This document shows positions 4,024 through 39,484 of a DNA stretch of 39,484 nucleotides, piece after piece. Positions within the stretch are counted from its first letter, which is position 1, and the number at the start of each line of letters is the position of its first letter. Below the pieces are notes generated by a model. That model was not told where the DNA came from. It saw only the letters and a program-made list of their open reading frames with translations, and ran no database searches. The position numbers were made by a program, and so were the translations under genes. Source of the stretch: Bifidobacterium breve (GTDB lineage Bacteria; Myxococcota_A; UBA796; SXON01); NCBI GenBank assembly GCA_943328795.2, contig CALQBK020000025.1, positions 1-39,484 of the forward strand. The letters run 5' to 3'.

Positions 4024-6126
4024 TCAGTCTCTGAGTTTCGTTCGATTTCGGGCGTAGGAGAGGGAGGCGAGGAGGGCGAGGAGGGCGGCGGGGGGGCTGC
4101 CGGGGGTGGCGCAGCCGCAGGGGCCGGGGTCCTCGGTGAGGGTGGGGCCGCTGGAGTCGTCGAAGCACGCGGACTCGAGCTCGGCGCGGTGCACCATGCC
4201 CCAGACGTAGGCCCCGGCGCCGAACCCGAGCATCGGCGCAGGCCCGGCGTAGTCGCCGTTCGCGGGGTCGTACAGCTCCGGGATGGTGTCGTGGTTGAGC
4301 ACCGCTTGGGAGGTGATCCACGCGTCCAGCGCGTCAGCGGCCTCGAGGTCGCACGAGCGGCGCAGGGCCTCCGCGAGCCGCAGGTCGATCACGGCCCACT
4401 CGGCCTGGTCGTAGCTGCTGCCATCGTCGTTCCGCGCGTAGCCGTTGTCGGACGCGGCCCGCAGGCGGTCCCAGGCGGCGTAGCTGGCGTCCCACTCGGG
4501 GCCGCCGGGCGCGAGGATCTCGTGGTTGAATGCCTCGACGGCAGCGAGGTCCAGGTAGTCCGAGCCGGCCTCGAGCTGGTCCTTGCTCGCGGCGATCACC
4601 CCGCTCGCGTCGAGCAGGTGCTCGGGGATCGCCGTCGCCACGGTGAGCGCGGCGTCGCGGTACGTGGCTTCGCGGCTGTCACCCAAGTCATGGGCGATGT
4701 TCGCCGCGGCGGTGAGCCCCGCCACGGCTTGGATGCTCGAGTACGCGAACTGCTCCTGCTTGCCGTTCCAGTGGCGCTCCCAGATCGAGGAGTCCGGCTG
4801 GAGCAGGCCCGTGTTCGGATCGATGAGCCCCACCAGCACGTCCGCGACGCCGTCGAGCGCGGCGGGGCCCCGCCCCTCGACGACGTCCATGCGACCTGCC
4901 GCCCGCACCTCGCCGAGCGCCCACAAGTACAACCCAAAGTCGTCGAACTCTACGTTTGGGCCGTCAGCGTCGCTGTCGGACCACTCGCTGCCGTCCCCGT
5001 ACACGCGGCACACGCTCACGATGTAGTCGGCGTCCCCCACGTAGGAGCGGTACTCGCCGGTCTTGCCCTGCGAGAGGAACGCCAACGCGTCCGCGGCCTC
5101 CTGGGTGCGGCCCGCTGCAGCGAGCGCGGCGGCAGCGTAGGACCCGTCGCGCACCCACGTGATGTTCCAGATGTGCTCGAACTCGGGGTCCGTCGCGGCC
5201 ACCGGGAACGACGCCGGGATCTGCCCAAACGCGTCGCCGGGCTCCTGCACCTGCGCCATGCGGAGGTACGCCAGCTGCTGTTGGTACACCCCCAGCTCGT
5301 CGTCCGACAAGCCCTCTGGCGGGTCGACCCGGCCTTGCCACTCAACCCAGTCAGCCAGCTCGTCCAGGTAGAGCTGCTGCGCCGTGCGGCCGGCGACCCA
5401 ACTGTCGGCCCCGCCCGCGCCGCCGGTGAACACACCGATCCAGGCCTCTTCCCCCGGGCCGAGGGCGTCGATCTGCCAACCGAACGCGGGGACCACGTCG
5501 TCCCCGGACTGCGCACACCCTCCGCCGATGGCTTGGCCAGCGAGGACGGCGTCGTACACCCCAGAGCAGCTCACGTCCGTCGCGGACGCGCCGACCAGGT
5601 CGAGCGTCACGTCGCTGCCGGACTCGGACAGGTGCGTGGCGTCGGGTGACGACGCGCTCTCGGTCCCGCCGACGTGCCAGTTGTGCAGCGACACGACTTG
5701 CAGCCCCGAGAGGGTGGTGCTCCCTGCGTTGAGCACCTTCAAGACTTGGACGAGGCCCATCCCCGGGTAGCTCATCGGCGCAAAATCATACTCGGTCAGC
5801 ACCAAGTCTGGCTGGGCGGACGACGTACGCTCGGCCACGACGATGCCGGTGCCGCGCTCGTAGTCGACGGCCCCGGCGCTCGTGAGCCACTCGCCGTTGC
5901 CGCCCCCGACCAGCCCAAAGTAGCTGTCGTACAGCAGGTTGGGCGTGACGTCCCCGGGCGTGTACTCCTGGTAGATGTGCGGGTACGCGGTGGTGAGCCG
6001 GTCGCCTTCGAACACCATCGCGCCGTAGCCGTTCGCCGTGCCGAGGTTGGGCAGCGAGTAGTGGGGTGCGGAGCCCGCCAACGCGGGGCCCGTGAGCCAC
6101 AGCAAGAGCAGGGGGAGGGGCGTCAC
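4024..6126 (-). CDS. GH15-type glucoamylase with MYXO-CTERM tail
   Basis: Glycoside hydrolase family 15 glucoamylases release glucose from the non-reducing ends of starch or maltodextrins. The N-terminal half is a beta-sandwich. The (alpha/alpha)6 barrel follows, with WNITWVRDGSYAAAAL, VEFDDFGLYLWAL and SSIWERHWNGKQEQF. Glu450 in the last is the candidate catalytic acid. The start is GTG at 6126, overlapping the porin stop as GTGA and giving 700 residues with the short signal MTPLPLLLLWLTGPALA; an ATG further upstream would lie inside the porin gene. The C-terminus (GPCGCATPGS, then a hydrophobic run, then ARNRTKLR) is MYXO-CTERM-like, a tail linked to cell-surface anchoring. Its place after lamB and an amylase supports extracellular maltodextrin breakdown. 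The exact substrate is inferred. Confidence 0.88.
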   Translation of the reverse strand: MTPLPLLLLWLTGPALAGSAPHYSLPNLGTANGYGAMVFEGDRLTTAYPHIYQEYTPGDVTPNLLYDSYFGLVGGGNGEWLTSAGAVDYERGTGIVVAERTSSAQPDLVLTEYDFAPMSYPGMGLVQVLKVLNAGSTTLSGLQVVSLHNWHVGGTESASSPDATHLSESGSDVTLDLVGASATDVSCSGVYDAVLAGQAIGGGCAQSGDDVVPAFGWQIDALGPGEEAWIGVFTGGAGGADSWVAGRTAQQLYLDELADWVEWQGRVDPPEGLSDDELGVYQQQLAYLRMAQVQEPGDAFGQIPASFPVAATDPEFEHIWNITWVRDGSYAAAALAAAGRTQEAADALAFLSQGKTGEYRSYVGDADYIVSVCRVYGDGSEWSDSDADGPNVEFDDFGLYLWALGEVRAAGRMDVVEGRGPAALDGVADVLVGLIDPNTGLLQPDSSIWERHWNGKQEQFAYSSIQAVAGLTAAANIAHDLGDSREATYRDAALTVATAIPEHLLDASGVIAASKDQLEAGSDYLDLAAVEAFNHEILAPGGPEWDASYAAWDRLRAASDNGYARNDDGSSYDQAEWAVIDLRLAEALRRSCDLEAADALDAWITSQAVLNHDTIPELYDPANGDYAGPAPMLGFGAGAYVWGMVHRAELESACFDDSSGPTLTEDPGPCGCATPGSPPAALLALLASLSYARNRTKLRD

Positions 6127-7496
6127 CGGTAGCCCTGCGACGCGATCCACCACTCGGCGCCGATGCCGAACGTGTGTTGGACAGGCCCGGCGGCGACACG
6201 CGTGTCGTCGGGGTCCAGGCGATCGAGCGCGTCTTGGTTCACGAGCGAGAGGGTGTAGCGCACGTGGATGTTGGGCCGCGCGAAGGTGCCCTTCCCGAGC
6301 TGCACGCCGGGCATGAGCGACACGCGGGTGACCGCCGGACGCTCTTGGACGTTGGTGCGCGGGTCCAGGCCCGCGGGGTAGGCGGCCTCGTGCGAGACCT
6401 CGGCTTGGATCGCCACGAAGCGCGTAGGGTAGAACGCGGGTCGGATGGACCCAACCCACTCCCAGCCGTCATCGGGGTCCGTCGCGTTCGCGTCGGCGTC
6501 CGCCCAGCTCCGCAGGTACGCCCCCGCGGCGATCGACGCGTGCCCGAGCTCCTGGTTGAACGCGAGCGCGCCGAGGTCCTCCCGCGCCGCGTTGACGCTG
6601 CTGTCCAGCGCAAACCCCGCGGTCGGGACGGTCAGCTCGCCTACCGCGGCGATCCCGGTCGCGTGCCGATAGTACACGTTGACGTAGCTGTCCTTCGACC
6701 ATCCGTATGCCGAGAGCTCGCCCCCGACGAGCAGCCCCGTCTCGGCAGGGAGGTCCTCGGAGACGCCGCCTTCAACCCCGTCCGTCTCGACCAGCCGCGT
6801 GCCTGCTGGCAAGCTGTGCAGCTCGCCGTACAGCTTGGGCCGGACGTGGACCGCGCCCGCCGGCACGTCGTAGCTGGCCTTCAACGAGCCGATCGTGCGC
6901 TGCCGGTCCAGGTACGTGATGCTGCTCGCGCCGACCGAGCCCGGCGTCGTCTCCTCCAACGCCTGGTACTGCCAATCGTCCGCTGAGAGCCGGTTGAACC
7001 CGACGTGCGCTGCGACGTTGAGCCGCTGATCGCGCCAATGCGCGCCCCCGCCGAGCGTGTTGAGGTTGTCGAGCGGCCAAAAGTCGAGGAGGTACACGTC
7101 GTCGCCGCGGTACATCCGGGAGCCTGCCCAGACGCCGAGGCCCTTGACGCCGAAGTCGTCGGCCTGCGCGTACACGTTGCGGATCGCGAGGCTGGCGTCG
7201 AACGTCCCGGTGTAGTGGAACAAGTCGCCGGAGAGGGCGGGGGTGACGAGGGCGCGGAACGCTGCGCCCGACGCAGTGCGGAGCTGCCAGCCGAGGTCCA
7301 GCTCGACGTAGGGGTCCTCCAACAGGCGCCCGGGGTGAGCCGTCACGCTGACCGGGTCGCCCGCGCCGCCGGCGAGGTCGGTGCCGGCCTCGACCCGGCC
7401 GTACGAGCCGACCGTGAACACGACGGGCGGCGCGGCGTCGTCGTCGGGCGCGGAGTCGTCGGCGAACGCGGAGTGGAGGCAGAGGGCGAGGAGCAC
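6123..7496 (-). CDS. lamB: LamB-type maltoporin
   Basis: This is an outer-membrane sugar porin of 457 residues, near the usual maltoporin size. After a short signal (MLLALCLHSAFA) and an acidic spacer, the first strand GSYGRVEAGTDL resembles the LamB N-terminus. The segment GLGVWAGSRMYRGDDVYLLDFW (residues 119-140) matches the conserved maltoporin strand that reads like FWAGKRYYRRHDVHILD. The protein ends with alternating aromatic strands (NIHVRYTLSLVNQD, HTFGIGAEWW). It should let maltodextrins into the periplasm. It sits between a lipoprotein alpha-amylase (16-bp gap upstream) and a surface glucoamylase (GTGA overlap downstream), so substrate and context agree. The start is GTG at 7496. No inner-membrane maltose ABC transporter is present in the window. 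Confidence 0.88.
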   Translation of the reverse strand: MLLALCLHSAFADDSAPDDDAAPPVVFTVGSYGRVEAGTDLAGGAGDPVSVTAHPGRLLEDPYVELDLGWQLRTASGAAFRALVTPALSGDLFHYTGTFDASLAIRNVYAQADDFGVKGLGVWAGSRMYRGDDVYLLDFWPLDNLNTLGGGAHWRDQRLNVAAHVGFNRLSADDWQYQALEETTPGSVGASSITYLDRQRTIGSLKASYDVPAGAVHVRPKLYGELHSLPAGTRLVETDGVEGGVSEDLPAETGLLVGGELSAYGWSKDSYVNVYYRHATGIAAVGELTVPTAGFALDSSVNAAREDLGALAFNQELGHASIAAGAYLRSWADADANATDPDDGWEWVGSIRPAFYPTRFVAIQAEVSHEAAYPAGLDPRTNVQERPAVTRVSLMPGVQLGKGTFARPNIHVRYTLSLVNQDALDRLDPDDTRVAAGPVQHTFGIGAEWWIASQGYR

Positions 7497-7512
7497 CCGG
7501 GCGGCTAACCGG

Positions 7513-9948
7513 TCAGCTGCCGACGAGGACGCGGGAGGACAACCCCGGCACGGTGACGGTGATGCTGTCGCCGCTCGCGTAGAACACGTCCCCGGTGAGC
7601 ACGTCGGTCCAGGTCGTCGCGGTGAGCCCGGCGAACCCGAGCCCGTTGGTCAGCGTGCGCTCGGCGTCGCCCTTGTTGAGCAGCACCAGCACCTCGTCCC
7701 CGCTGGTCTCCTCGTAGCGCGCGTAGGCCCACAGGTCGGCCTCCCCTTGCCACCAGTCCGTGCGTACGCCCTGGGACATCGCCGGGTGTAGGCGCCGGGC
7801 TTGCCCCAACAGCTGGACCTGGGCCAACACGTCGCCCTCGTCTGGCGACACGTCGTCGCCAAACCGCATCATCTGCCGGTTGTCGGGGTCGTTGTAGCCA
7901 GGGAGCCCGATCTCGTCGCCATAGTAGACGAGCGGCAGCCCCTCGTTGGTGAGCAGGAACGTCCAGGCCAACCGGAGCCGATCGTAGGGCTCGGACCAGC
8001 CCGGCGGCGTGTCCGGCGTGCGCAGGTTGCCGTCGTCCCCGCACGAGCTGTCCCCGTACAACGACTCGATCTCGCCGCTCGACATCGCCGTGAAGCGGGC
8101 GACGTCGTGGTTGCCCAGGAACGTGCTCATCGTGAAGCCAGCGAACGCGGAGACCGAGGCCTCGCGCGTGGATTGGAGCGAGCCGTCGCCGTTCGAGAGC
8201 CCGATCTCGTCCCGCCCGAACGCCGCGACGATGGCCCAGTACAGCGCGAAGTCGAACTGGGCGTCGAGCTCGTTCTCCCCGATGTAGCTCGCGATCAGGC
8301 CCGAGTCCCCGGAGTAGGTCTCGCCGACCGTGTAGAAGTCCTCGTCGCCGCCCGCGCTGGGGAACTCGAGCTCGTCGTGGATTCGGCTCGCGAAGTTGTG
8401 GATGACGCTGTGCGGCATGTGCTTCGCGGCGTCCACTCGGTAGCCGTCCAAGTCATACTCGCGCGCCCAGGCCATGGCGTCGTCGACGAACTGCACGAGC
8501 GGGCCGGTCTCGTAGTAGCGAATATCGGGGAGGAAGCTATCGAACCAACACGTCTCGGGGATGTCGTTCCAGTTGTTCGCGTCCCCGCACAGCTGCTCGT
8601 CGGTGAACCAGTCGGGGTGCTCGGTGTAGTACGGGTGATCTTGGTGGACGTGGTTCCCCACCCAGTCGGTGAGCACCCGCATGTTCCGCGCGTGGGCGGC
8701 GTCGATCAGCGCGTGGAGCTGGGCTTCGTCGCCGAAGTGGCCCTCGGTCGCGAACGGGTCGGCGGGCCAGTACCCGTGGTAGCCGGAGTAGGTGGCGTTG
8801 CAGGTGGTGCCGTACGCCCCGGCCGCGTTGTCCTGCGGCGCGGTGAGCCACAGCACCGTGACGCCCATCTCCTGCAGGTAGTCGAGCTTGTCCACGACCC
8901 CGCGCCAGTCGCCGCCCTCGTAGTCGGTGCTGGCGATGCCCGTGCCTTCGCTGCCGTCGAGCGAGGTGTCCCCGTTGTTGAAGCGGTCGACGAACACGTA
9001 GTACATCAGGCCGTTCTGCCAGGTGTCGGCGTCGGTCCAGAACCGCACGTGGACCGGCTCGGGAGTGCGGCCGTCGGTGCTCGTGACCCCGAACTCCAGC
9101 ACGTGGTGGCCTTCGGTGAGCCCGCTGGCGGAGTATTGGAACCCCGCGCCTGTCCACGCGTCCACCGGCGCGCCGTCCAAGGTCGCCCAGGACGATGCGA
9201 TGTCCCCGGTAGCGGACACCTGGACGTCCGCAGAGTTGGCGTCGCGGTCGATGTCCAAGCCGGTGACGGTGAGCTCCGGGAGCGTGCAGTCCTCGACGAC
9301 GAGCATGCTGTTGCAGCTCGCGCCGCCAAGCGGGCACGAAGGGTCCCAGGTGTAGCCCTCGTCGCACTGGACGAACGGGGCGTCGGGATCGCAGGCCCAA
9401 CTCTCGGTGCCCGCGCTGTAGTCGGCTTCGATGACCTTGTAGGGCCACGCGCCCTCGGCGAGCTCCAGGTCCACGGCCCAGGCGCCGCCCCCGAGGTCGG
9501 TCATCGGGGTCGCGGTGGCGTCCCAGTCGTTGAACGTGCCGGCGATGTAGACGGCCTGGGTGCCTTCGCCGCGGGCGGTGTAGGTGACGTGCTGCACGCA
9601 CGAGCCGGTGGCGACCCCCACGGTGACGTCGAGATCGGCCTCGGCGGTGTTGCCGCAGGCGTCGGTCGCCGCGAGGTGCACGCTGCTCTCGCCTTCGAAG
9701 CCGGCCTCCGACAGCAGGGTGAGCGTGCCGTCGGCGTCGACGTCCGCGAGCACCCCGTCGTCCGCTTCGACCTCGAACACGAGGTCGTCCCGGTCGTCGG
9801 TCACGAGGTCGGCGAGCGCGACGGTCTGCCGCACGTCGGGCTCGAGCGCGACGGGGTCGAGGGGGAGCCACTGCGGGGACTCGCGGCCGCAGCACCCCGT
9901 GAGCGCGAGGAGGGCCACGACGAGCGCCGCGTCGGACCTGGACGTCAT
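7513..9948 (-). CDS. Lipoprotein alpha-amylase, GH13
   Basis: This is an alpha-1,4-glucan hydrolase of 811 residues. It has a lipoprotein signal with lipobox LTGC (Cys19), an Ig-like stretch, then an E-set/starch-binding-like domain at about residues 115-215 (VYIAGTFNDWDATATPM). The GH13 barrel starts near 310 (YYVFVDRFNNGD). All four GH13 regions are visible: LTDWVGNHV, GYRVDAAKH with nucleophile Asp506, TVGETY with acid/base Glu543, and LGNHD with Asp615. The domain ends with a beta-sandwich (VLVLLNKGDAERTL). The ATG overlaps the upstream stop (ATGA). As a lipoprotein it is likely outer-membrane bound and works with the LamB porin and the GH15 glucoamylase downstream. Confidence 0.95.
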   Translation of the reverse strand: MTSRSDAALVVALLALTGCCGRESPQWLPLDPVALEPDVRQTVALADLVTDDRDDLVFEVEADDGVLADVDADGTLTLLSEAGFEGESSVHLAATDACGNTAEADLDVTVGVATGSCVQHVTYTARGEGTQAVYIAGTFNDWDATATPMTDLGGGAWAVDLELAEGAWPYKVIEADYSAGTESWACDPDAPFVQCDEGYTWDPSCPLGGASCNSMLVVEDCTLPELTVTGLDIDRDANSADVQVSATGDIASSWATLDGAPVDAWTGAGFQYSASGLTEGHHVLEFGVTSTDGRTPEPVHVRFWTDADTWQNGLMYYVFVDRFNNGDTSLDGSEGTGIASTDYEGGDWRGVVDKLDYLQEMGVTVLWLTAPQDNAAGAYGTTCNATYSGYHGYWPADPFATEGHFGDEAQLHALIDAAHARNMRVLTDWVGNHVHQDHPYYTEHPDWFTDEQLCGDANNWNDIPETCWFDSFLPDIRYYETGPLVQFVDDAMAWAREYDLDGYRVDAAKHMPHSVIHNFASRIHDELEFPSAGGDEDFYTVGETYSGDSGLIASYIGENELDAQFDFALYWAIVAAFGRDEIGLSNGDGSLQSTREASVSAFAGFTMSTFLGNHDVARFTAMSSGEIESLYGDSSCGDDGNLRTPDTPPGWSEPYDRLRLAWTFLLTNEGLPLVYYGDEIGLPGYNDPDNRQMMRFGDDVSPDEGDVLAQVQLLGQARRLHPAMSQGVRTDWWQGEADLWAYARYEETSGDEVLVLLNKGDAERTLTNGLGFAGLTATTWTDVLTGDVFYASGDSITVTVPGLSSRVLVGS

Positions 9949-17789: not shown

Positions 17790-19367
17790 GTGACCTCTAC
17801 CCCTCCCGCGACCGGCCTCGGCATCGGGCCCTACGAGCTCCTGGAGCGCGTGGGGGTAGGCGGCATGGGCGAGGTCTGGCGGGCGCGGCACCGGACGCTT
17901 GGCCGGCTGGTCGCGGTGAAGCTCATCCGCGCCGGCACGCTCGGGGTCTCTGCCGACGATGATCGCGTCGCGCTGGGCCGGTTCGAGCGTGAAGCGCGCG
18001 TGGCCGCGTCGCTTCGGTCGCCGCACGCGATCCAGGTGCAGGACTTCGGGGTCACGCCGGAGGGGACGTTCTTCCAGGTGATGGAGCTGCTCGACGGGCT
18101 CGATCTGCAGGCGCTCGTCGAGCGGTTTGGGGCCCAGCCCCCGGGGCGCGTGGTCGGCCTGCTGCGGCACGCCGCGGACGCGCTCACCGAGGCCCACCAG
18201 CTCGGGTTCGTGCACCGCGACGTCAAGCCGTCCAACCTGTTCCTCTGCCGGCTCGGCACCCGCGGGGACTTCCTCAAGGTGTTGGACTTCGGCCTCGCGC
18301 GGCCGGCGACGAGCGACGTCCACGTCACCCGCACTGGCGGCATCCCCGGCTCGGCGGCCACCACCGCGCCTGAGCTCCTGCGCGGCGATCCCCCCACCGA
18401 CAAGGCCGACGTCTACGCGCTCGGCTGCGTCGCCACGTGGTTGCTGGCCGGGCGCCTCCCGTTCGCCGCCACGACGGCGATCGAGATGGTCGTAGCGCAC
18501 CTGGAGAAGGTGCCGGCCCCGCTCGACCCGGCGGTACCTGCGCCGCTTGCGGAGCTGGTCGCGCGCTGCTTGGCCAAGGATCCCGCCGCGCGTCCGACCT
18601 CGAGGGAGCTCTCTCGGCTCCTCGCCGCGACGGGCCTCGAGGCTGGCTGGTCCGAGGAGCAGGCCGAGGCCTGGTGGGAGGAGAACCAGCCCGGGCGGGC
18701 GCCTACGGTGGTCGCGGGCGCCGGCCCCGCACCCTCGCGCGAGCAGGTGTACACGCGGCTTCGGCGCGAATTCGAAGAGAGCCGCATCGACCTTGGCGAC
18801 TACGAGCGCCGGCTCGACGTGGCGCGCCGGGCCGAGACGCCCGTCGCCGTGCTCGACGCCCTCCGGGGGCTGCCTGACCTGCCGCAGCCCACCGCCCTCG
18901 TGAAGGTGGCGGACGCCGCTTTGCCCGCGCCGCGATCCGCCTCGACGCGAAAGCTGGTGACGGTGCTCGCGTCGACCCGGCGGGCGGGGGCGTGGCAACC
19001 CGACGCTTCGACGAGGCTCGTGACGGTTTTCGGGAGCGCCGAGCTGGACTTGCGCACGGCCGTGCTCGGCCCCGGGATGACGGAGCTGCGTTGCGTGACC
19101 GTGTTCGGGAGCGTCGAGATCACCGTGCCGCCCGGCCTGTACGTCGAGCTGAACGGGGTGGGCGTGCTCGGCTCGTTCGACGGGGAGTCCGGGGCGGCGC
19201 AGCCTCCGACCGCCGGGCCGTGGGTCCGCGTGTCGGGGGTAGCGGTGATGGGGAGCGTAGACGTCGTGGTGAAGCCGCTGCCGGTGCCCGGGCGCTCGTT
19301 CGGCGAGGTCGCGGTGGCGGCGATCACGCGGGCCCGCGACGCCGTGCTGGGGAAGCCCGGGGAGTAG
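17790..19367 (+). CDS. Ser/Thr kinase fused to DUF1707-like and LiaF-like domains
   Basis: This is a 525-residue cytosolic protein in three parts. Residues 14-280 are an intact Hanks-type kinase: Gly loop [12 protein letters not shown] with Lys44, HRDVKPSN with Asp144, DFG with Asp166, and an activation loop with Thr residues. Residues 315-370 ([30 protein letters not shown]) match the DUF1707/SHOCT-like pattern of a short helical bundle. Residues 390-490 contain repeated beta turns ([37 protein letters not shown]) like the C-terminal domain of LiaF and other cell-wall-stress proteins. No transmembrane helix is present. In Firmicutes LiaF controls envelope-stress signalling, so a kinase coupled to an envelope-sensing fold is plausible here. 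The start is GTG at 17790, 22 bp after the nucleotidyltransferase. Confidence 0.88.
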
Positions 19368-32973: not shown

Positions 32974-34419
32974 CTAGGGTGCGACCCACTCCAGCTCGAC
33001 GTGGTACGGCTCGTCCCCGGCGTCGCCCGAGTACCCAAGGGCCACGAGGTAGTACGTGACGTCCGGCTCCAGCGGCACCACGAGCTCGCAGTACTCGGGG
33101 TTCGCGCCCGTCAGGCAGTACGTGTCGCCGAAGCTCGAGAAGTAGTCGATCGTCCCGTAGGGGTCGTAGTTGCCCCAGATCCCGAAGTCGAGGTCGTCCG
33201 CGGCGTTGCCCCAGCTGCCCGTCATCCGGACGTACATCTGCTCGGGGACCGTGAACGAGTAGGCGTCGCCGTCGTTGGCGCTCCAGCCGGACCCGGAGAG
33301 GGTCGACGCCCCGTCGACGGTGTCCACGTACCCTAGGCCGGAGAGCATCCCCAGCTCTTGCGCGACGAGCGTGTCGAGGATCAGCGTGTAGTCGGCCTCG
33401 TTGACTTGGGCGACCGTGGTGTCGGGCGTGGTCTCGACCGACTGGATGCCGATCACCTTGGGGAACAGCCCGTCGAGCACGATCGCGGTGTCCACCGTCG
33501 TGGTCTCGTTGGTCACGCTCGCTTCGACCGCCGTCGTGCTGTACAACGATCCCGCGCTCGGCGTGGCGTTCAGGCTCGAGAGCGTGCCGGCCATCAGGTA
33601 GAGCGGCCCGTCGAGCGCCTCGTCGACGATCGCGTCCGCGGGGATGGTGTCCGCCGTGTCGGTGTCCTCCATCACGACGGAGCGCACGTACAGCAGCTCG
33701 TAGCTGCCGGTCCACGTGTACGTCGCCTCGTCGTACACCCAGTCCGTGACCGTCCCGCCGGCAACGGGCGCGGACCCGACCGCCGGGTCGCCCTCCAGGT
33801 AGGCGCCCACGAGCACGTCGTTCTCGCCAGGCGCGGAGCCGGACAGCACCACGGTGTAGGGCACCGCGGCGTCCTCGCCCTCCTCCGAGAACCCGGCGAT
33901 GACGAGCACGTACTCGGTGCCACCGACCACGTCTGCAGACACAGTCACCAGCCCAGCGCTGCCGCTGGTGGACGCGGTGCCGAGGCCGCCCGCCACGTCG
34001 AGCGACGCGGCGTCGACGATGTACACGTCGTAGATGACGGCGTCGCCCCCGGCGGTGCCGGTGCCGGCGTCGAAGCTCACGGTGACGGTGAAGGTGCCGT
34101 CGGCCACCGGGGTGAACGCGTAGAGGTCGGCGTCGCCGTAGATCTCGTCGTCCTCGGTCCCGGGGCCGCCGGTGTCCGGCGCAAACGAGCTCGTCTCGCC
34201 GGAGAGCAGCACGGACCGGTAGGTCAGCGAGCTGGAGCCGTCCTCGCCGAGCGCCTGTGGGGCATTGTCGTTCGGGGCGGTCGGCGGATCTTTCTCGTCT
34301 ACGCTCGCGGGCGGGATCGAGACGGTCCCGGCGAGCACGGTGTGGTCGATGCCGGTCTCGGGGACATCGCAGCCCGCGAGCAAGAGGCCGAGGGGGAGGG
34401 TGAAGTGAAGGGTTTTCAT
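32974..34419 (-). CDS. Lipoprotein of unknown function paired with TonB receptor
   Basis: The 481-residue product begins MKTLHFTLPLGLLLAGC with lipidated Cys17. The rest is beta-rich with extracellular-type strands (YAFTPVADGTFTVTVSFDAG, YSFTVPEQMYVRMTGSWG, VTYYLVALGYSGDAGDEPYHVELEW), resembling two pre-peptidase C-terminal (PPC)-like domains that frame an Asp/Thr-rich centre. It has many Asp and few Lys, like secreted proteins. It overlaps the TonB receptor stop by one base (TGATG), so it should be made with it and could be its surface partner. It is not SusD-like (no TPR helices). Function is unknown. Confidence 0.78.
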   Translation of the reverse strand: MKTLHFTLPLGLLLAGCDVPETGIDHTVLAGTVSIPPASVDEKDPPTAPNDNAPQALGEDGSSSLTYRSVLLSGETSSFAPDTGGPGTEDDEIYGDADLYAFTPVADGTFTVTVSFDAGTGTAGGDAVIYDVYIVDAASLDVAGGLGTASTSGSAGLVTVSADVVGGTEYVLVIAGFSEEGEDAAVPYTVVLSGSAPGENDVLVGAYLEGDPAVGSAPVAGGTVTDWVYDEATYTWTGSYELLYVRSVVMEDTDTADTIPADAIVDEALDGPLYLMAGTLSSLNATPSAGSLYSTTAVEASVTNETTTVDTAIVLDGLFPKVIGIQSVETTPDTTVAQVNEADYTLILDTLVAQELGMLSGLGYVDTVDGASTLSGSGWSANDGDAYSFTVPEQMYVRMTGSWGNAADDLDFGIWGNYDPYGTIDYFSSFGDTYCLTGANPEYCELVVPLEPDVTYYLVALGYSGDAGDEPYHVELEWVAP

Positions 34420-37154
34420 CAGAACTCTCCGCGCAGGCCAAGCTGCAGGTAGCGGGGGGACTGCCGGCTGGTCGGCGTGCCGAAGATCGGGTTGCCGTCC
34501 TCGTCGGTGTAGACACCATCGCCGGACTCGTTGCCGTACGTCTGCTCGACGGACTCGACGGTGCGGTCGTTGAACACGTTGAACGCCTCCAGGGTCACGT
34601 CCCAGGTCGTCTTCTTGACGGCGAGGGTCAACCCGACCTTGAGGTCCAGCTGGCTCTCGGCGGGGAGGCGGTAGGTGCCGTCCGTGGGCTCCTTGTACAG
34701 GTACCAGCCTTGGTCGTACTGGTCGTAGTACAGCTTGTTGTACGGCGCCCCGGAGAGGATGTTGAAGTTCCAACCATACAGGTAGCCAAGCCGGACAGCG
34801 TCCGAGATCTTGATCGCGTTCGGGTTGCGCTGCGAGCCCAGGAGCTTGACGCTGTGCGTGTGGTCGTAGCCGAGCAAGCCCGTCTCTTCTTCCTGCTGCG
34901 TCGGGTTGTCGAACACGGCGGTCGCGAACTGGTCCGAGTTGGTGCCGTACGCGCGGCTCCACGTGTAGGAGCCCAGGACCGCGAACCCGTTGTCGAACTG
35001 CCGCGACAAGCTGAACTCGAGATCTGTGTAGTCTACGAACGCCTCGTCGGGGGTGCGGATGCGGTAGATCGCCTCGTTCGTGCCGTTGCGGTAGCCGACC
35101 ACGTTGTCGCCCGCGTCGTTCCAGATCAGGTTGACCTCGTCGTCCTCCCAGAAGTTCTGCGAGTGCGAGTAGGTCCCCGTGATGTCGACGCCCCAACCGG
35201 CGCCGAGGTCGCGCGACAGGCCGAGATCGAAGCTGTCGGAGTGCGGCGCCTTCAGGTCGTCGCTGATGACGTTGCTGCTGGACGCGGCGTACACCGGCTC
35301 TTCGCCCCACGCCCCGGCTTCGGCGTCCCACGCGTACACCGCGAAGCCTTGGCTCTGGCGGTGCAGGATGTCTGAGACGGCGAGGAAGCCCGAGTCGTAG
35401 AAGCGGCCATAGTAGGCGTGCGCGCTCGTCTTACCGTCCCCCGTGATGTCTGCGGCGGCGCCCATGCGCGGGGCGATCGTGACCTTCGAGAACGCGAGCT
35501 CGCCGAGGTCGTTGTTCAGCATCGAGTAGTCCAGGCGGGCGCCGGGCCGCAGCGTGAGCCGGGGGATCGGGTTGTAGACGTCCTGGATGTACCCGCTGAT
35601 CAGCGAGCCGGTGAGGTGCACCTTCTGCTCGCTGTCGTAGCGGTACTGGTACGCGTTCTCGTACGTGCTCATGTCCGACGGATCGCCGGTGGAGGACTTG
35701 TAGGTGATGTCGGTGATGCCCGGGAACTGGTCGTCCGTGATCAAGTACTCGCCGACCAGGCCGATCTTCGACTGGTGCTCGCCAAGCAACGTAAAGAACT
35801 GGGTCCAGGCTGTCTGGAACGACATCCGGTATCGGTGGGAGATCTCGCCGTAGGGCTGGTCACCGTTGGAGAACTCGTCCGGGCCGTAGGCGAGCCACGG
35901 GTCCTCCAAGCCGGTCGAGATGCAGTCGCGCAGCTTGTCGTCGTTGCCGGCGACCGCCTCGCAGTCCTTGGCGTAGTACTCCAGGTTCGACTTCTGGAAG
36001 TAGGCCTGGGTCTGGATGATCGTCGAGGCCGACGGCGTGAGCAGGTGACCGGCTGTGAGCGAGAACCCGCCCTGGCGCCAGTTGTACTCGGAGTTCGGCA
36101 GCGTGTGTGGGTCCTGCGCGGCGTTGTTGATGTGCGTGGGGTCGCCTTCGCCCTGCACCCAGATCTTGTTCGCCGCGTTCGGCTGCCAGGTCAGCTTCCC
36201 GAACCAGAAGATGCTGTTCCACTGCTGTGGGTCGACCGGCTGGTCGAGGGGCCGGCCGATGGCCTCGTCCACCGCGACGGTAGACGTCTTCAAGTCGCCC
36301 TGGAGGCTGGCGAAGAACCAGAGCTTGTCCTTCGCGATCGGGCCGCCGAGGTTGATCGCGAGCGACTTCTTGTCGTAGATGCCGAACTGCTCGCCTTCCA
36401 GGGGCTTTGCCAGGCGGAGGGGCGTGCTCGAGTAGATGAACTGCGCGTCGCCGTGGAATTCATTTCCGCCTGAGCGCGTGACGATGTTCACCGCGCCGCC
36501 GAGCGAGCGACCATACTCGGCGTCCATGCCGCCGGTGATGACCTGCACCTCGTCGATGGCGTCGTAGTTCATGTTCTGGGAGAACGTGCCCGTGATCGGG
36601 TCCGTGCCGTTCACGCCGTCGGTGTAGTACTGGTTGCCGCTGTCGAACCCGCCGTGGACGTTGGGGTTGCCGTTCCCGCTGTCCACCACGCCGGGCGCGA
36701 GGGTGGTCAGGCCCTGGTAGCTGCGACCGGGTGCCGGGATGTCGCGCATCGACTCGCGCGTCAACACAGCGCCGGTCGAGGTCTTGTGCGTGTCGACCGT
36801 CGGCTTCGCTGCGATGACGTCCACCGCGACAGCGCCGCTGGAGGGCTGCAGCTCGATCTTGAGCTCGGCCGACTGACCCGTGATGACCTGCAGGCCGGTG
36901 GCCGTGTAGGGGAAGAAGCCATCGGCGCGCGTCGTGACGGTGTACTGGCCCGGGGGGAGCGCCGGGAAGCGGTAGTAGCCGTCGTCGTCAGTCGTCGCAG
37001 ACGCGACGCCCATCAGCGCAGAGCCGGTTACCGAGACTTGGAGGCCGGGGACGCCGATCCCTGACGGGTCGATCACTTGGCCGCGGATCTGGCCCGTGAC
37101 CTCGATCGCGAGGGCGGGCTTGGACAGCGAGAGAGCGAGGAGGAGCGTGAGCAA
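34419..37154 (-). CDS. Oar-like TonB-dependent outer-membrane receptor
   Basis: The 911-residue product has a carboxypeptidase-regulatory/CNA-B-like domain at residues 20-100 (GQIRGQVIDPSGIGVPGLQVSV), then a plug with DIPAPGRSYQGLTTLAPGV and GGMDAEYGRSLGGAVNIVTRSGGNEFHG, and a large 22-strand-type barrel ending in LGLRGEF with a terminal Phe. This is the Oar/TonB-receptor type common in Myxococcota and Bacteroidota. The substrate is unknown. I chose TTG at 37154: GAGGA lies 6 bases upstream, and it gives the short signal MLTLLLALSLSKPALA, like other exported proteins here. Longer readings need a nonstandard start or pass through low-GC DNA. The lipoprotein gene follows with a one-base overlap. 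Confidence 0.87.
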   Translation of the reverse strand: MLTLLLALSLSKPALAIEVTGQIRGQVIDPSGIGVPGLQVSVTGSALMGVASATTDDDGYYRFPALPPGQYTVTTRADGFFPYTATGLQVITGQSAELKIELQPSSGAVAVDVIAAKPTVDTHKTSTGAVLTRESMRDIPAPGRSYQGLTTLAPGVVDSGNGNPNVHGGFDSGNQYYTDGVNGTDPITGTFSQNMNYDAIDEVQVITGGMDAEYGRSLGGAVNIVTRSGGNEFHGDAQFIYSSTPLRLAKPLEGEQFGIYDKKSLAINLGGPIAKDKLWFFASLQGDLKTSTVAVDEAIGRPLDQPVDPQQWNSIFWFGKLTWQPNAANKIWVQGEGDPTHINNAAQDPHTLPNSEYNWRQGGFSLTAGHLLTPSASTIIQTQAYFQKSNLEYYAKDCEAVAGNDDKLRDCISTGLEDPWLAYGPDEFSNGDQPYGEISHRYRMSFQTAWTQFFTLLGEHQSKIGLVGEYLITDDQFPGITDITYKSSTGDPSDMSTYENAYQYRYDSEQKVHLTGSLISGYIQDVYNPIPRLTLRPGARLDYSMLNNDLGELAFSKVTIAPRMGAAADITGDGKTSAHAYYGRFYDSGFLAVSDILHRQSQGFAVYAWDAEAGAWGEEPVYAASSSNVISDDLKAPHSDSFDLGLSRDLGAGWGVDITGTYSHSQNFWEDDEVNLIWNDAGDNVVGYRNGTNEAIYRIRTPDEAFVDYTDLEFSLSRQFDNGFAVLGSYTWSRAYGTNSDQFATAVFDNPTQQEEETGLLGYDHTHSVKLLGSQRNPNAIKISDAVRLGYLYGWNFNILSGAPYNKLYYDQYDQGWYLYKEPTDGTYRLPAESQLDLKVGLTLAVKKTTWDVTLEAFNVFNDRTVESVEQTYGNESGDGVYTDEDGNPIFGTPTSRQSPRYLQLGLRGEF

Positions 37155-37286
37155 GAGGGGTCCTCGGAAAGGTCTATATTTAGTCCAAATTTGTCGTTTC
37201 TGCAACGGCTCCGTCAGATGGGGCGGCGCCGTCGCCGGTGCGCCAGGCGTACAGCGGTCGGGGTGCAACCTGGATAGCTCCCCAAG
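37155..37286. promoter_or_regulatory. Divergent, locally AT-richer promoter region with near-palindrome
   Basis: The 132-bp spacer lies between the TonB receptor (minus) and the pseudokinase (plus). It holds the most AT-rich stretch in the window. At 37171-37186, GGTCTATATTTAGTCC is a near-perfect 16-bp palindrome (one mismatched pair), 17 bp before the receptor's TTG start. At 37186-37193 the perfect 8-bp CAAATTTG follows. This is a good candidate for an operator or for the -10 region of the receptor gene. Confidence 0.55.
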
Positions 37287-39484
37287 ATGCTCGTCCTTCC
37301 CCAAAACCTCGGGTCGCTCACCCTGCACCGCAAGATCGGCACCGGCACTGTCGCCGAGTCCTACCTGGCCACGGGCGCCGACGGGAAGCCCGCGGTCGTG
37401 CGGCGGATCTTGCCGTTCATCGTGAAAGACCCGAGCCGAAAGGCGGGCATCGAGGCGCGCGTCGCCGAGCTGTCCGGGTTTCGGCACCCCGCGCTCGTCC
37501 ACGTCAACGGGGTGCTGGAGGCCGGCGGCGAGACGTTCATCGTCGAGGAGTACGTCGACGGCGTGTCGCTCGAGCGCCTCATCACGTCCGCCCGCAACCT
37601 GGGCGTGTCTCTGCCGCCGAACCTGTTCCTGCACATCGCCGTCCAGATCTGCAACGCGCTCGAGGCCCTCCACAGCCGCCCGGGCGCGACCGGCGCGGAC
37701 AGCGTCCTTCACCTCGGGATCAAGCCCGGCGCGGTGTTCGTCGCGCCGGACGGCAAGGTCGCAGTGGGCTCGTTCGGGCTCACCCGCAGCCCCAACAGCC
37801 TGCCGCACGGCGGGGTGGCCGGCCCGGTCGCGATCAAGATGGAGTACCTGTCTCCTGAGCAGACGCACTCCGACCAGCAGATCACCCCCGCGTCCGACCT
37901 GTTCTCGCTCGGCGCGGTGCTGTACGAGCTCCTCACGCTCGAGAGCCTGTTCCGAGCAGAGTCCAACCTGCAGACCATCCACCGCATCCGGCGCGGCGAG
38001 GTCACGAGCCAACTGTTGCGGGTGAAGGGCAAGATGCCCGGGCTCGACAAGATCCTGTACCGGGCGCTCTCCGTGAACCCGAAGCACCGGTACCAGCGCG
38101 CGTTCGTGCTTCGCGAGGACCTGCGCGGGCTGATGAGCGGGTACAGCTTCGCGGCGGTGGCGGACGACGCGCGGGCGTGGCTCGCGCCGCTGTTCGAGGA
38201 GCGCTCGCGGGGCGTGGACATCGCGACGGCCTCGATCGAGGCGTCCGCGCGGAGCTTGGAGTCGGAGGAGTCGGTGACGGGCATCCGGCCGATGCCCACG
38301 GAGAGCCCGGCGGCCGAGCCGGGCTCAGGCCGCACCTTGGAGCCGGTCCCGGACGACGACGGCCATCAGCCGGCGCGGACGCTCGAGCCGGACCCCTCGG
38401 ACGCGGCCGCGGCGGATGCCGAGCCCGCTCGCGAGCGCGCGACGATCACGCGAACGTTGGTCGGCCTCGACGACGACGCCGAGTCCTCCGGGCCCGAGGC
38501 CACCGACCTCGGGTTCGTCCCGACGCCCGACCCCCCGCGGGTGTTCCCGGACCCGACCGCGTCGTCCGCTGGCGCCGAGCCGCCCCCGCCGGCCCTGGCG
38601 GCGCCGCGCACGTCGTTGCGCCCCGTCTCCCTTGTCCGGCTGGACGACGAAGAGGCCGCGCCGGAGTTCGCCCGCGCCGGCACGCTGCTCCCCGAGTCGG
38701 AGACGCCGGAGAGCACGGCTGCGTGGATCGCCCGCTCCGTGGGGTCGGAGGGTCCAGGCCATGATCTCCCGCGGTTTGGGGACAGCGTCGAGAACACCGC
38801 GGCCCACATCGGCCGAGCGGAGCCGGAGGACACGGCCTCGTTCATCCCGGCGGGCGTCCACGAGGACACGGCGTCGTTCGCGCCGGACCCGCGCGGGAAC
38901 GAGAACACGGCGTCGTACATCCCGCCCCGGGAGAGCACCGCGTCGGGGTTGCCCGACGCCGACGGCCCCCAGGAGAACACGCTCGGCAACGCGCTCGGCG
39001 ACGAAGGGGTTGACGCGGCTCCGGCGCCGGCGTTCTTCCCCCGCGAGGCGCCAGCTCCGATCGCCTCCGCCCCGCCCGCGCCCCCGCCGGGGCTCTCGCG
39101 GCAGATGCCCGGGCCCACCGGCGCCCGCCCTCCGAAGAGCGCCACCCTCCCGCCCCCGGCGGCGTCGAGCGTCCCCGCGGCCGCTCCCCGCGCTCCCGAG
39201 CCGTACTCGGAGCCCGACCTCCCGCCCGCCGCGCCGTCGCGCGCGCCGTTGTTCCTGTTCAGCGTTGTCGGCGGCCTCGCGGCGATCGCGCTGTGCTCAG
39301 GCCTCGTCTACGGCGTCTCGCAGTACGCCGTGCAGGCCCGGGCGGAGCGCGTAGCGGAAGCGTTGAAGGACGCCGCGCCCCCGGTCGTCGCGGCCTCGGA
39401 CGATCCCGCTTCCACCCTCGCCGGCGGCCTCGCCCCGGTAGACGCCGCGCCGGCCGATGCCCCCGCTGTTGCGCCTGCCGCCCC
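37287..39484 (+). CDS. Transmembrane Ser/Thr pseudokinase with Thr-repeat linker (runs off the right edge)
   Basis: From ATG 37287 the frame is open to the last base (at least 732 codons), which is why no stop is seen. Residues 10-270 are a Hanks-type kinase fold (HRKIGTGTVAESY, VEEYVDGVSL, EYLSPEQ, ASDLFSLGAVLYELL) with all three key residues lost: VVRRI where VAIK is expected (Arg39), HLGIKPG (142-148) instead of HRDxKP, and GSFG with Ser162 in place of the DFG Asp. The linker from about 330 to 650 is acidic and Pro-rich, and between 475 and 570 it carries seven E-x-T-A/L-type repeats. One transmembrane segment lies near 655-678, followed by an Ala-rich segment outside. It is likely a membrane scaffold or sensor rather than an enzyme. 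Confidence 0.88.
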   Translation, partial: MLVLPQNLGSLTLHRKIGTGTVAESYLATGADGKPAVVRRILPFIVKDPSRKAGIEARVAELSGFRHPALVHVNGVLEAGGETFIVEEYVDGVSLERLITSARNLGVSLPPNLFLHIAVQICNALEALHSRPGATGADSVLHLGIKPGAVFVAPDGKVAVGSFGLTRSPNSLPHGGVAGPVAIKMEYLSPEQTHSDQQITPASDLFSLGAVLYELLTLESLFRAESNLQTIHRIRRGEVTSQLLRVKGKMPGLDKILYRALSVNPKHRYQRAFVLREDLRGLMSGYSFAAVADDARAWLAPLFEERSRGVDIATASIEASARSLESEESVTGIRPMPTESPAAEPGSGRTLEPVPDDDGHQPARTLEPDPSDAAAADAEPARERATITRTLVGLDDDAESSGPEATDLGFVPTPDPPRVFPDPTASSAGAEPPPPALAAPRTSLRPVSLVRLDDEEAAPEFARAGTLLPESETPESTAAWIARSVGSEGPGHDLPRFGDSVENTAAHIGRAEPEDTASFIPAGVHEDTASFAPDPRGNENTASYIPPRESTASGLPDADGPQENTLGNALGDEGVDAAPAPAFFPREAPAPIASAPPAPPPGLSRQMPGPTGARPPKSATLPPPAASSVPAAAPRAPEPYSEPDLPPAAPSRAPLFLFSVVGGLAAIALCSGLVYGVSQYAVQARAERVAEALKDAAPPVVAASDDPASTLAGGLAPVDAAPADAPAVAPAA
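38709..38990 (+). repeat. Degenerate E-[NDS]-T-A-[SA] peptide repeat, seven copies
   Basis: Within the pseudokinase linker the codons for Glu start at 38709, 38790, 38826, 38862, 38901, 38931 and 38973, giving ESTAAWI, ENTAAHI, EDTASFI, EDTASFA, ENTASYI, ESTASGL and ENTLGNA. Spacing after the first pair is 12, 12, 13, 10 and 14 residues. The nucleotide copies have diverged while the peptide core is kept, which suggests selection on the protein. Confidence 0.8.

Follow-up and report, generated by a model that had tools for sequence, protein, structure and literature searches.

A transmembrane pseudokinase of Myxococcota whose relatives head a peptide-importer operon

The stretch of DNA analysed here (the window, 39,484 nucleotides) ends in a gene for a kinase-like protein that has lost its catalytic residues and carries a repeated threonine motif beside a membrane helix. 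What could such a protein do, and is it a working scaffold or a kinase in decay? What bacterial Ser/Thr kinases respond to and what bacterial pseudokinases do are two general open questions. We describe the gene, its linker motif, and the neighbourhoods of its relatives, and weigh four explanations against them.

Domain order and loss of catalytic residues

An ATG open frame of 732 codons runs on the + strand from position 37287 to the window edge, as the sequence-only reading had reported. That edge is the end of contig C25, and the gene is thus broken off by the contig end. Topology was assigned by hydropathy, which agrees with the earlier description of the protein as transmembrane: one helix is predicted from about residue 656 (hydropathy maximum, 2.26), and full-length relatives have it at the same location. 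The kinase side would be cytoplasmic and the C terminus periplasmic. The parts of the gene within the window are as follows.

37287..38171, + strand: pseudokinase domain, residues 1-295 (Pfam, PknB alignment, family alignment, AlphaFold2)
38172..39251, + strand: predicted cytoplasmic Pro/Ala/Glu-rich linker, residues 296 to about 655 (composition and shuffles, dN/dS)
38709..38984, + strand: E-x-T motif array, Thr 477-565 (pattern counts and shuffles, linkers of relatives)
39252..39317, + strand: single transmembrane helix, about residues 656-677 (hydropathy, relatives)
39318..39484, + strand: start of the predicted periplasmic Ala/Pro-rich linker, stopped by the contig end (continues on G000:C71:1-875)

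The missing C terminus, which the earlier reading had proposed to find by extending the sequence, lies on contig C71 of the same genome as a conserved 175-residue domain. With the C-terminal domain of an 89% identical relative as the probe, one place in this genome matched (G000:C71:336-875); the frame there is already open where the contig begins, and the remainder of the gene is G000:C71:1-875. The assembly appears to break in the low-complexity periplasmic linker. The order is therefore pseudokinase, linker, one transmembrane helix, Ala/Pro-rich linker, and 175-residue domain; a full-length relative (L102) has 1010 residues. In the 89% identical relative, the C-terminal domain was modelled as ten helices and is all helical (pLDDT, 95.7). 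Its fold resembles TPR proteins, weakly by E value (best, 0.02), and a PDB sequence search with the C-terminal profile returned weak matches only, with no common theme.

A protein kinase domain was recognised at residues 13-285 (PF00069, E = 1.4e-24; Mycobacterium tuberculosis PknB, E = 2e-25), and an AlphaFold2 model of the domain (pLDDT, 90.7) has PknB as its best PDB match, which bears out the view that the kinase fold is retained. In the PknB alignment, Arg39, Gly144, and Ser162 occupy the positions of the VAIK Lys, HRD Asp, and DFG Asp, exactly as first read. Two further losses were found, namely, the catalytic-loop Asn (now Ala149) and the αC Glu (now Arg58). The register of the latter was taken from the PknB alignment, in which Arg58 aligns with Glu59 of PknB, which we take to be the αC Glu. 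HLGIKPGA replaces HRDxKPxN, and SFG replaces DFG; SPE and Asp204 are retained. Homologues with normal residues had been named as evidence that would point to a local oddity or decay. Among 41 aligned kinase domains of the window's order, the window's included, none has the HRD Asp, the DFG Asp, or the catalytic-loop Asn, one has the β3 Lys, and most carry no acidic residue at the HRD or DFG positions. On these residues, assignment of the protein as a pseudokinase is strongly supported.

The relatives come from uncultured Myxococcota/Deltaproteobacteria-type metagenome-assembled genomes (MAGs), many of them genomes of the window's order. Five of the records with this Myxococcota-type gene (L068, L077, L084, L086, and L090) are MAGs titled Klebsiella pneumoniae, titles that look wrong, and at L104 (8001-11156) the pseudokinase gene lies in two frames, reflecting a frameshift or an assembly error.

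The E-x-T-A motif of the linker

The sequence-only reading had described seven copies of E-x-T-A-S at 10- to 14-residue spacing. Seven E-x-T are present (Thr 477, 504, 516, 528, 541, 551, and 565), but only six are E-x-T-A, four of these being E-x-T-A-S, and the seventh, at Thr 565, is E-N-T-L. The last five gaps (12, 12, 13, 10, and 14) have the spacing described, while the first is 27. The six E.TA of the window's linker are well beyond chance: 20,000 shuffles gave 0.36 on average and never more than 5.

Linkers of relatives carry the form P-[ED]-x-T-A-[AS]-[FWHY]-[IL]. A strict expression, [ED]xTA[ASG][FWYHIL][ILVA], has 28 matches, spread over 17 of 46 linkers, versus 0.22 expected from shuffles, a comparison in which the expression was derived from the same sequences that it counts and the related sequences are not independent. 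In the same 46 linkers, there is one match to the Ser version and none to the reversed motif. The strict motif is absent from 29 of the 46, some of them truncated, and is thus not essential to the family. Strict copies number 3 to 5 in the window's genus (3-4 in three congeners) and 0-2 in more distant relatives; single copies occur at L079, L091, L093, and L101, which are about 50-62% identical in the kinase domain. Since distant relatives have single copies, the motif is old, and it was expanded into an array at the level of the genus, so that the claim of a conserved repeat holds for the motif itself and not for its seven-copy number.

The motif copies have diverged at the DNA level. Recent tandem duplication was rejected as the origin of the array: TRF found no unit over the motifs, and direct copies are 81-84% alike. 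A genome-wide search with the motif pattern gave six other matches only, scattered and single, one of them presumably in DnaK, with no second array; within this genome, the array is peculiar to the gene at 37287.

In front of the motif threonines are acidic residues, and position +3 is hydrophobic or aromatic. The reported mycobacterial kinase consensus is similar, being acidic ahead of Thr and large and hydrophobic at +3 (PMC5686395). FHA domains reportedly bind pThr with high specificity over pSer (PMC3146460). Taken together, this specificity and the consensus match make phospho-Thr docking a sensible reading, which the preference of the motif for Thr over Ser (28 versus 1) also favours. 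The linker threonines fit a multisite phospho-Thr/FHA target; they are probably phosphorylated by another kinase, and the phosphorylated linker may be read by FHA domains, of which the genome has 16. No gene for an FHA protein or an active kinase was found among the neighbours conserved in the window's order. The kinase encoded at 17790-19367 (+), in which VAVK, HRD, and DFG are intact, was considered as a dedicated partner and set aside, no linkage having been found despite its catalytically intact residues. It also has DUF1707 and LiaF-like C-terminal matches below the Pfam cutoffs.

The peptide-importer operon and catalytically intact relatives

All-against-all neighbour comparison and Pfam searches gave a downstream order in relatives of c4, c6, OppA, OppB, OppC, and a double ABC ATPase. 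The c4 product is a short CarboxypepD_reg-like protein, in many cases with a lipoprotein-type signal; c6 encodes about 390 residues with a lipoprotein-like start, and the OppA is an SBP_bac_5 protein. The spacing was examined at 24 loci that have the gene in full and no less than 800 bp of sequence beyond it. At 21 of them, the operon gene that follows on the same strand is c4, c6, or OppA (c4 in 19, c6 at L067, OppA at L098), and c4 starts within -4 to +4 bp of the pseudokinase stop in 18 of the 19. The three exceptions are the window's genus. Outside this genus, then, the gene heads a tightly spaced operon that also encodes an OppABC-DF peptide importer and two secreted proteins.

In the window's genus, the gene lies outside the transporter operon, with its C-terminal domain still present, and c4-c6-OppABC-DF is kept elsewhere (G000:C94, G002:C200, G003:C216, and G004:C43). 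Motif expansion and the loss of operon linkage both belong to this genus and, being one event each, may coincide by accident. Upstream of the gene in the window is a divergent TonB-dependent-receptor-like frame (34419-37200, -) with an N-terminal carboxypeptidase-regulatory-like stretch; in other genera, a small secreted protein, purH, and purD lie upstream of the pseudokinase gene. In the open-access literature, we found no report linking a bacterial kinase or pseudokinase to peptide transport or binding proteins.

Deeper relatives were found with the C-terminal domain as the probe. In another family of the class, three genomes (G147, G032, and G128; L186-L188) encode a kinase with a transmembrane helix and the same C-terminal domain, with VALK, HRD, and DFG intact, and these genes adjoin a second intact kinase and Opp genes. 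Beside Opp genes in G186 (L185) are an intact kinase and a separate lipoprotein carrying the C-terminal domain, and L190-L193 have the domain with no fused kinase, again beside Opp genes; at these loci, the kinase-free domain sits on a lipoprotein or transmembrane stub. The lipoprotein-like proteins at L190 and L191 have a CarboxypepD-like stretch before the domain and look like a fusion of c4 with the TPR-like part. In G038 (L189), a degenerate kinase domain is fused to the C-terminal domain and adjoins an intact kinase, with no Opp genes within the stretch read. This L189 protein (oriented 5679-8396) has HGQ for HRD and SDICPD near DFG, possibly an independent loss of catalysis.

With long rows removed, the pseudokinases grouped with the intact Opp-linked kinases (support, 80/81), and a test of one clade did not reject it (P = 0.315); a sister-group placement is only moderately supported by these trees. 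The simplest account would be that an ancestral transporter-linked kinase lost catalysis once, before the window's order diversified. We define the Opp-operon kinase lineage of Myxococcota by the shared C-terminal TPR-like domain and the Opp operon, both of which the pseudokinases have, with the operon unlinked in the window's genus. The peptide-transporter operon, together with the catalytically intact class-level counterparts, is the strongest clue to function.

Explanations and known systems

The reading that we prefer, with a probability of roughly 0.5, is that a receptor-like Ser/Thr kinase belonging to a peptide (Opp-type) ABC importer operon became a noncatalytic transmembrane scaffold. 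Its periplasmic TPR-like domain would touch either the secreted proteins encoded alongside it or the peptide-binding protein and would signal that peptide is being taken up or bound, while the cytoplasmic pseudokinase would act as a binding platform. A separate active kinase would phosphorylate the E-x-T-A motifs in the flexible linker, and the phosphorylated motifs would recruit FHA-domain proteins, with more copies giving higher avidity. This reading builds on the catalytic-residue loss, domain order, operon linkage, and motif conservation seen in the sequences; to these it adds periplasmic sensing, phosphorylation, and FHA recruitment, which we infer. Several observations speak against it, namely, the linkers that lack the strict motif, the position of the gene outside the operon in the window's genus, the failure to find an FHA or active-kinase gene among conserved neighbours, and the weak TPR match of the C-terminal domain. 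A wider proposal, which we advance only tentatively, is an undescribed Myxococcota system in which a transmembrane kinase would read the state of a peptide importer and, in one order, would have become a dead scaffold that signals only via E-x-T-A phosphorylation by other kinases and FHA capture, with copy number tuning the output.

Less probable is that the protein is a structural importer subunit on which OppA and the secreted proteins are anchored or assembled at the transporter, with the pseudokinase holding the ABC ATPase and the E-x-T-A stretches serving as unphosphorylated docking helices, without phospho-signalling. Tight operon linkage would fit such a role, and the kinase-free C-terminal domains at L185 and L190-L193 indicate that the periplasmic part does not need a kinase in order to serve. 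However, Ser is usually as good as Thr at a helix cap, so that the excess of Thr over Ser in the motif (28 versus 1) is unexpected for a plain cap, and homologues with intact kinases occur in the same setting.

We consider it unlikely that Arg39 and Arg58 form a pair that binds nucleotide or another anion as a ligand-gated switch, possibly with unusual catalytic activity. Arg occupies the αC Glu position in 41 of 41 aligned sequences and the β3 Lys position in 38 (His in 2, besides the single Lys), and the DYD and DLHK pseudokinases have been modelled with nucleotide despite loss of the Lys (PMC12599244). Against this, the acidic HRD and DFG residues are gone in most members and there is no catalytic-loop Asn, which makes metal binding unlikely, and Gly20 of the glycine loop is kept in just 23 of 41.

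Between the window and its nearest relative (NG86), dN and dS are 0.068 and 0.651 for the kinase domain, 0.150 and 0.822 for the C-terminal domain, and 0.375 and 0.801 for the fast-evolving linker, and the pseudokinases form one clade (support, 99/97 and 100/100). Local decay is ruled out by the consistent loss of residues in 41 sequences, the low dN, and monophyly; a decaying kinase paralogue without function, which would suit the loss of all catalytic residues, is thus extremely improbable, given also the consistency of the substitutions across many genera, the retention of the operon, and the finding that, of 33 genomes sampled from the window's order, 27 have the family.

A new lineage of pseudokinases is thus well supported, and the functional setting in which the scaffold mechanism is proposed lends itself to testing. 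What is new is the operon with two secreted proteins and OppABC-DF and the same layout with an intact kinase in class-level relatives. Because the change from kinase to pseudokinase can be located on a phylogeny along which the gene neighbourhood is kept, catalytic and noncatalytic forms can be compared in one transporter setting.

Membership in the described families ActPs3, GLW, DYD, CP1, and DLHK was rejected, each failing on a defining feature. CP1 and DLHK have no transmembrane region, whereas the 37287 protein has one helix, and the GLW family has GLW for HRD and a β3 poly-Leu (LLLL/W) where the 37287 family has HL[GAS] and VVR. DYD pseudokinases are similar in being membrane associated, with the β3 Lys changed to Arg and the αC Glu absent (PMC12599244), but they have the DYD motif and the catalytic-loop Asn and belong to Actinobacteria or Firmicutes, while the present family, from Myxococcota, has [GS][FY]G and the Asn in 0 of 41. 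EssB/YukC of type VII secretion is likewise a single-pass transmembrane pseudokinase and the scaffold of a transport machine (PMC12599244); it differs in its attenuated activation loop and its Firmicutes secretion system, with no linker array or Opp operon known.

MviN of M. tuberculosis (ActPs3), with PknB and FhaA, and GlnH-GlnX-PknG are precedents for the proposed mechanism. MviN is a membrane pseudokinase that has lost all three motifs, and a phosphorylated tail next to its pseudokinase domain recruits an FHA protein (PMC12599244). MviN serves the peptidoglycan pathway, and members of its family have VALT and a deletion in the activation loop, whereas the 37287 family belongs with a peptide-importer operon and has a loop of normal length with VVRR, HLx, and [GS][FY]G; the ActPs3 hallmark deletion is absent, the segment from SFG162 to SPE191 aligning to the loop of PknB with no large gap. 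In the GlnH-GlnX-PknG-GarA/OdhI system of Actinobacteria, a solute-binding protein, a transmembrane protein, a TPR Ser/Thr kinase, and an FHA target cooperate, and its authors predict more kinases linked to solute-binding proteins (PMC6069109). PknG is soluble and active with cytoplasmic TPRs; the 37287 protein, in contrast, is dead and membrane anchored, its TPR-like part is predicted to be periplasmic, and the binding protein is OppA-like.
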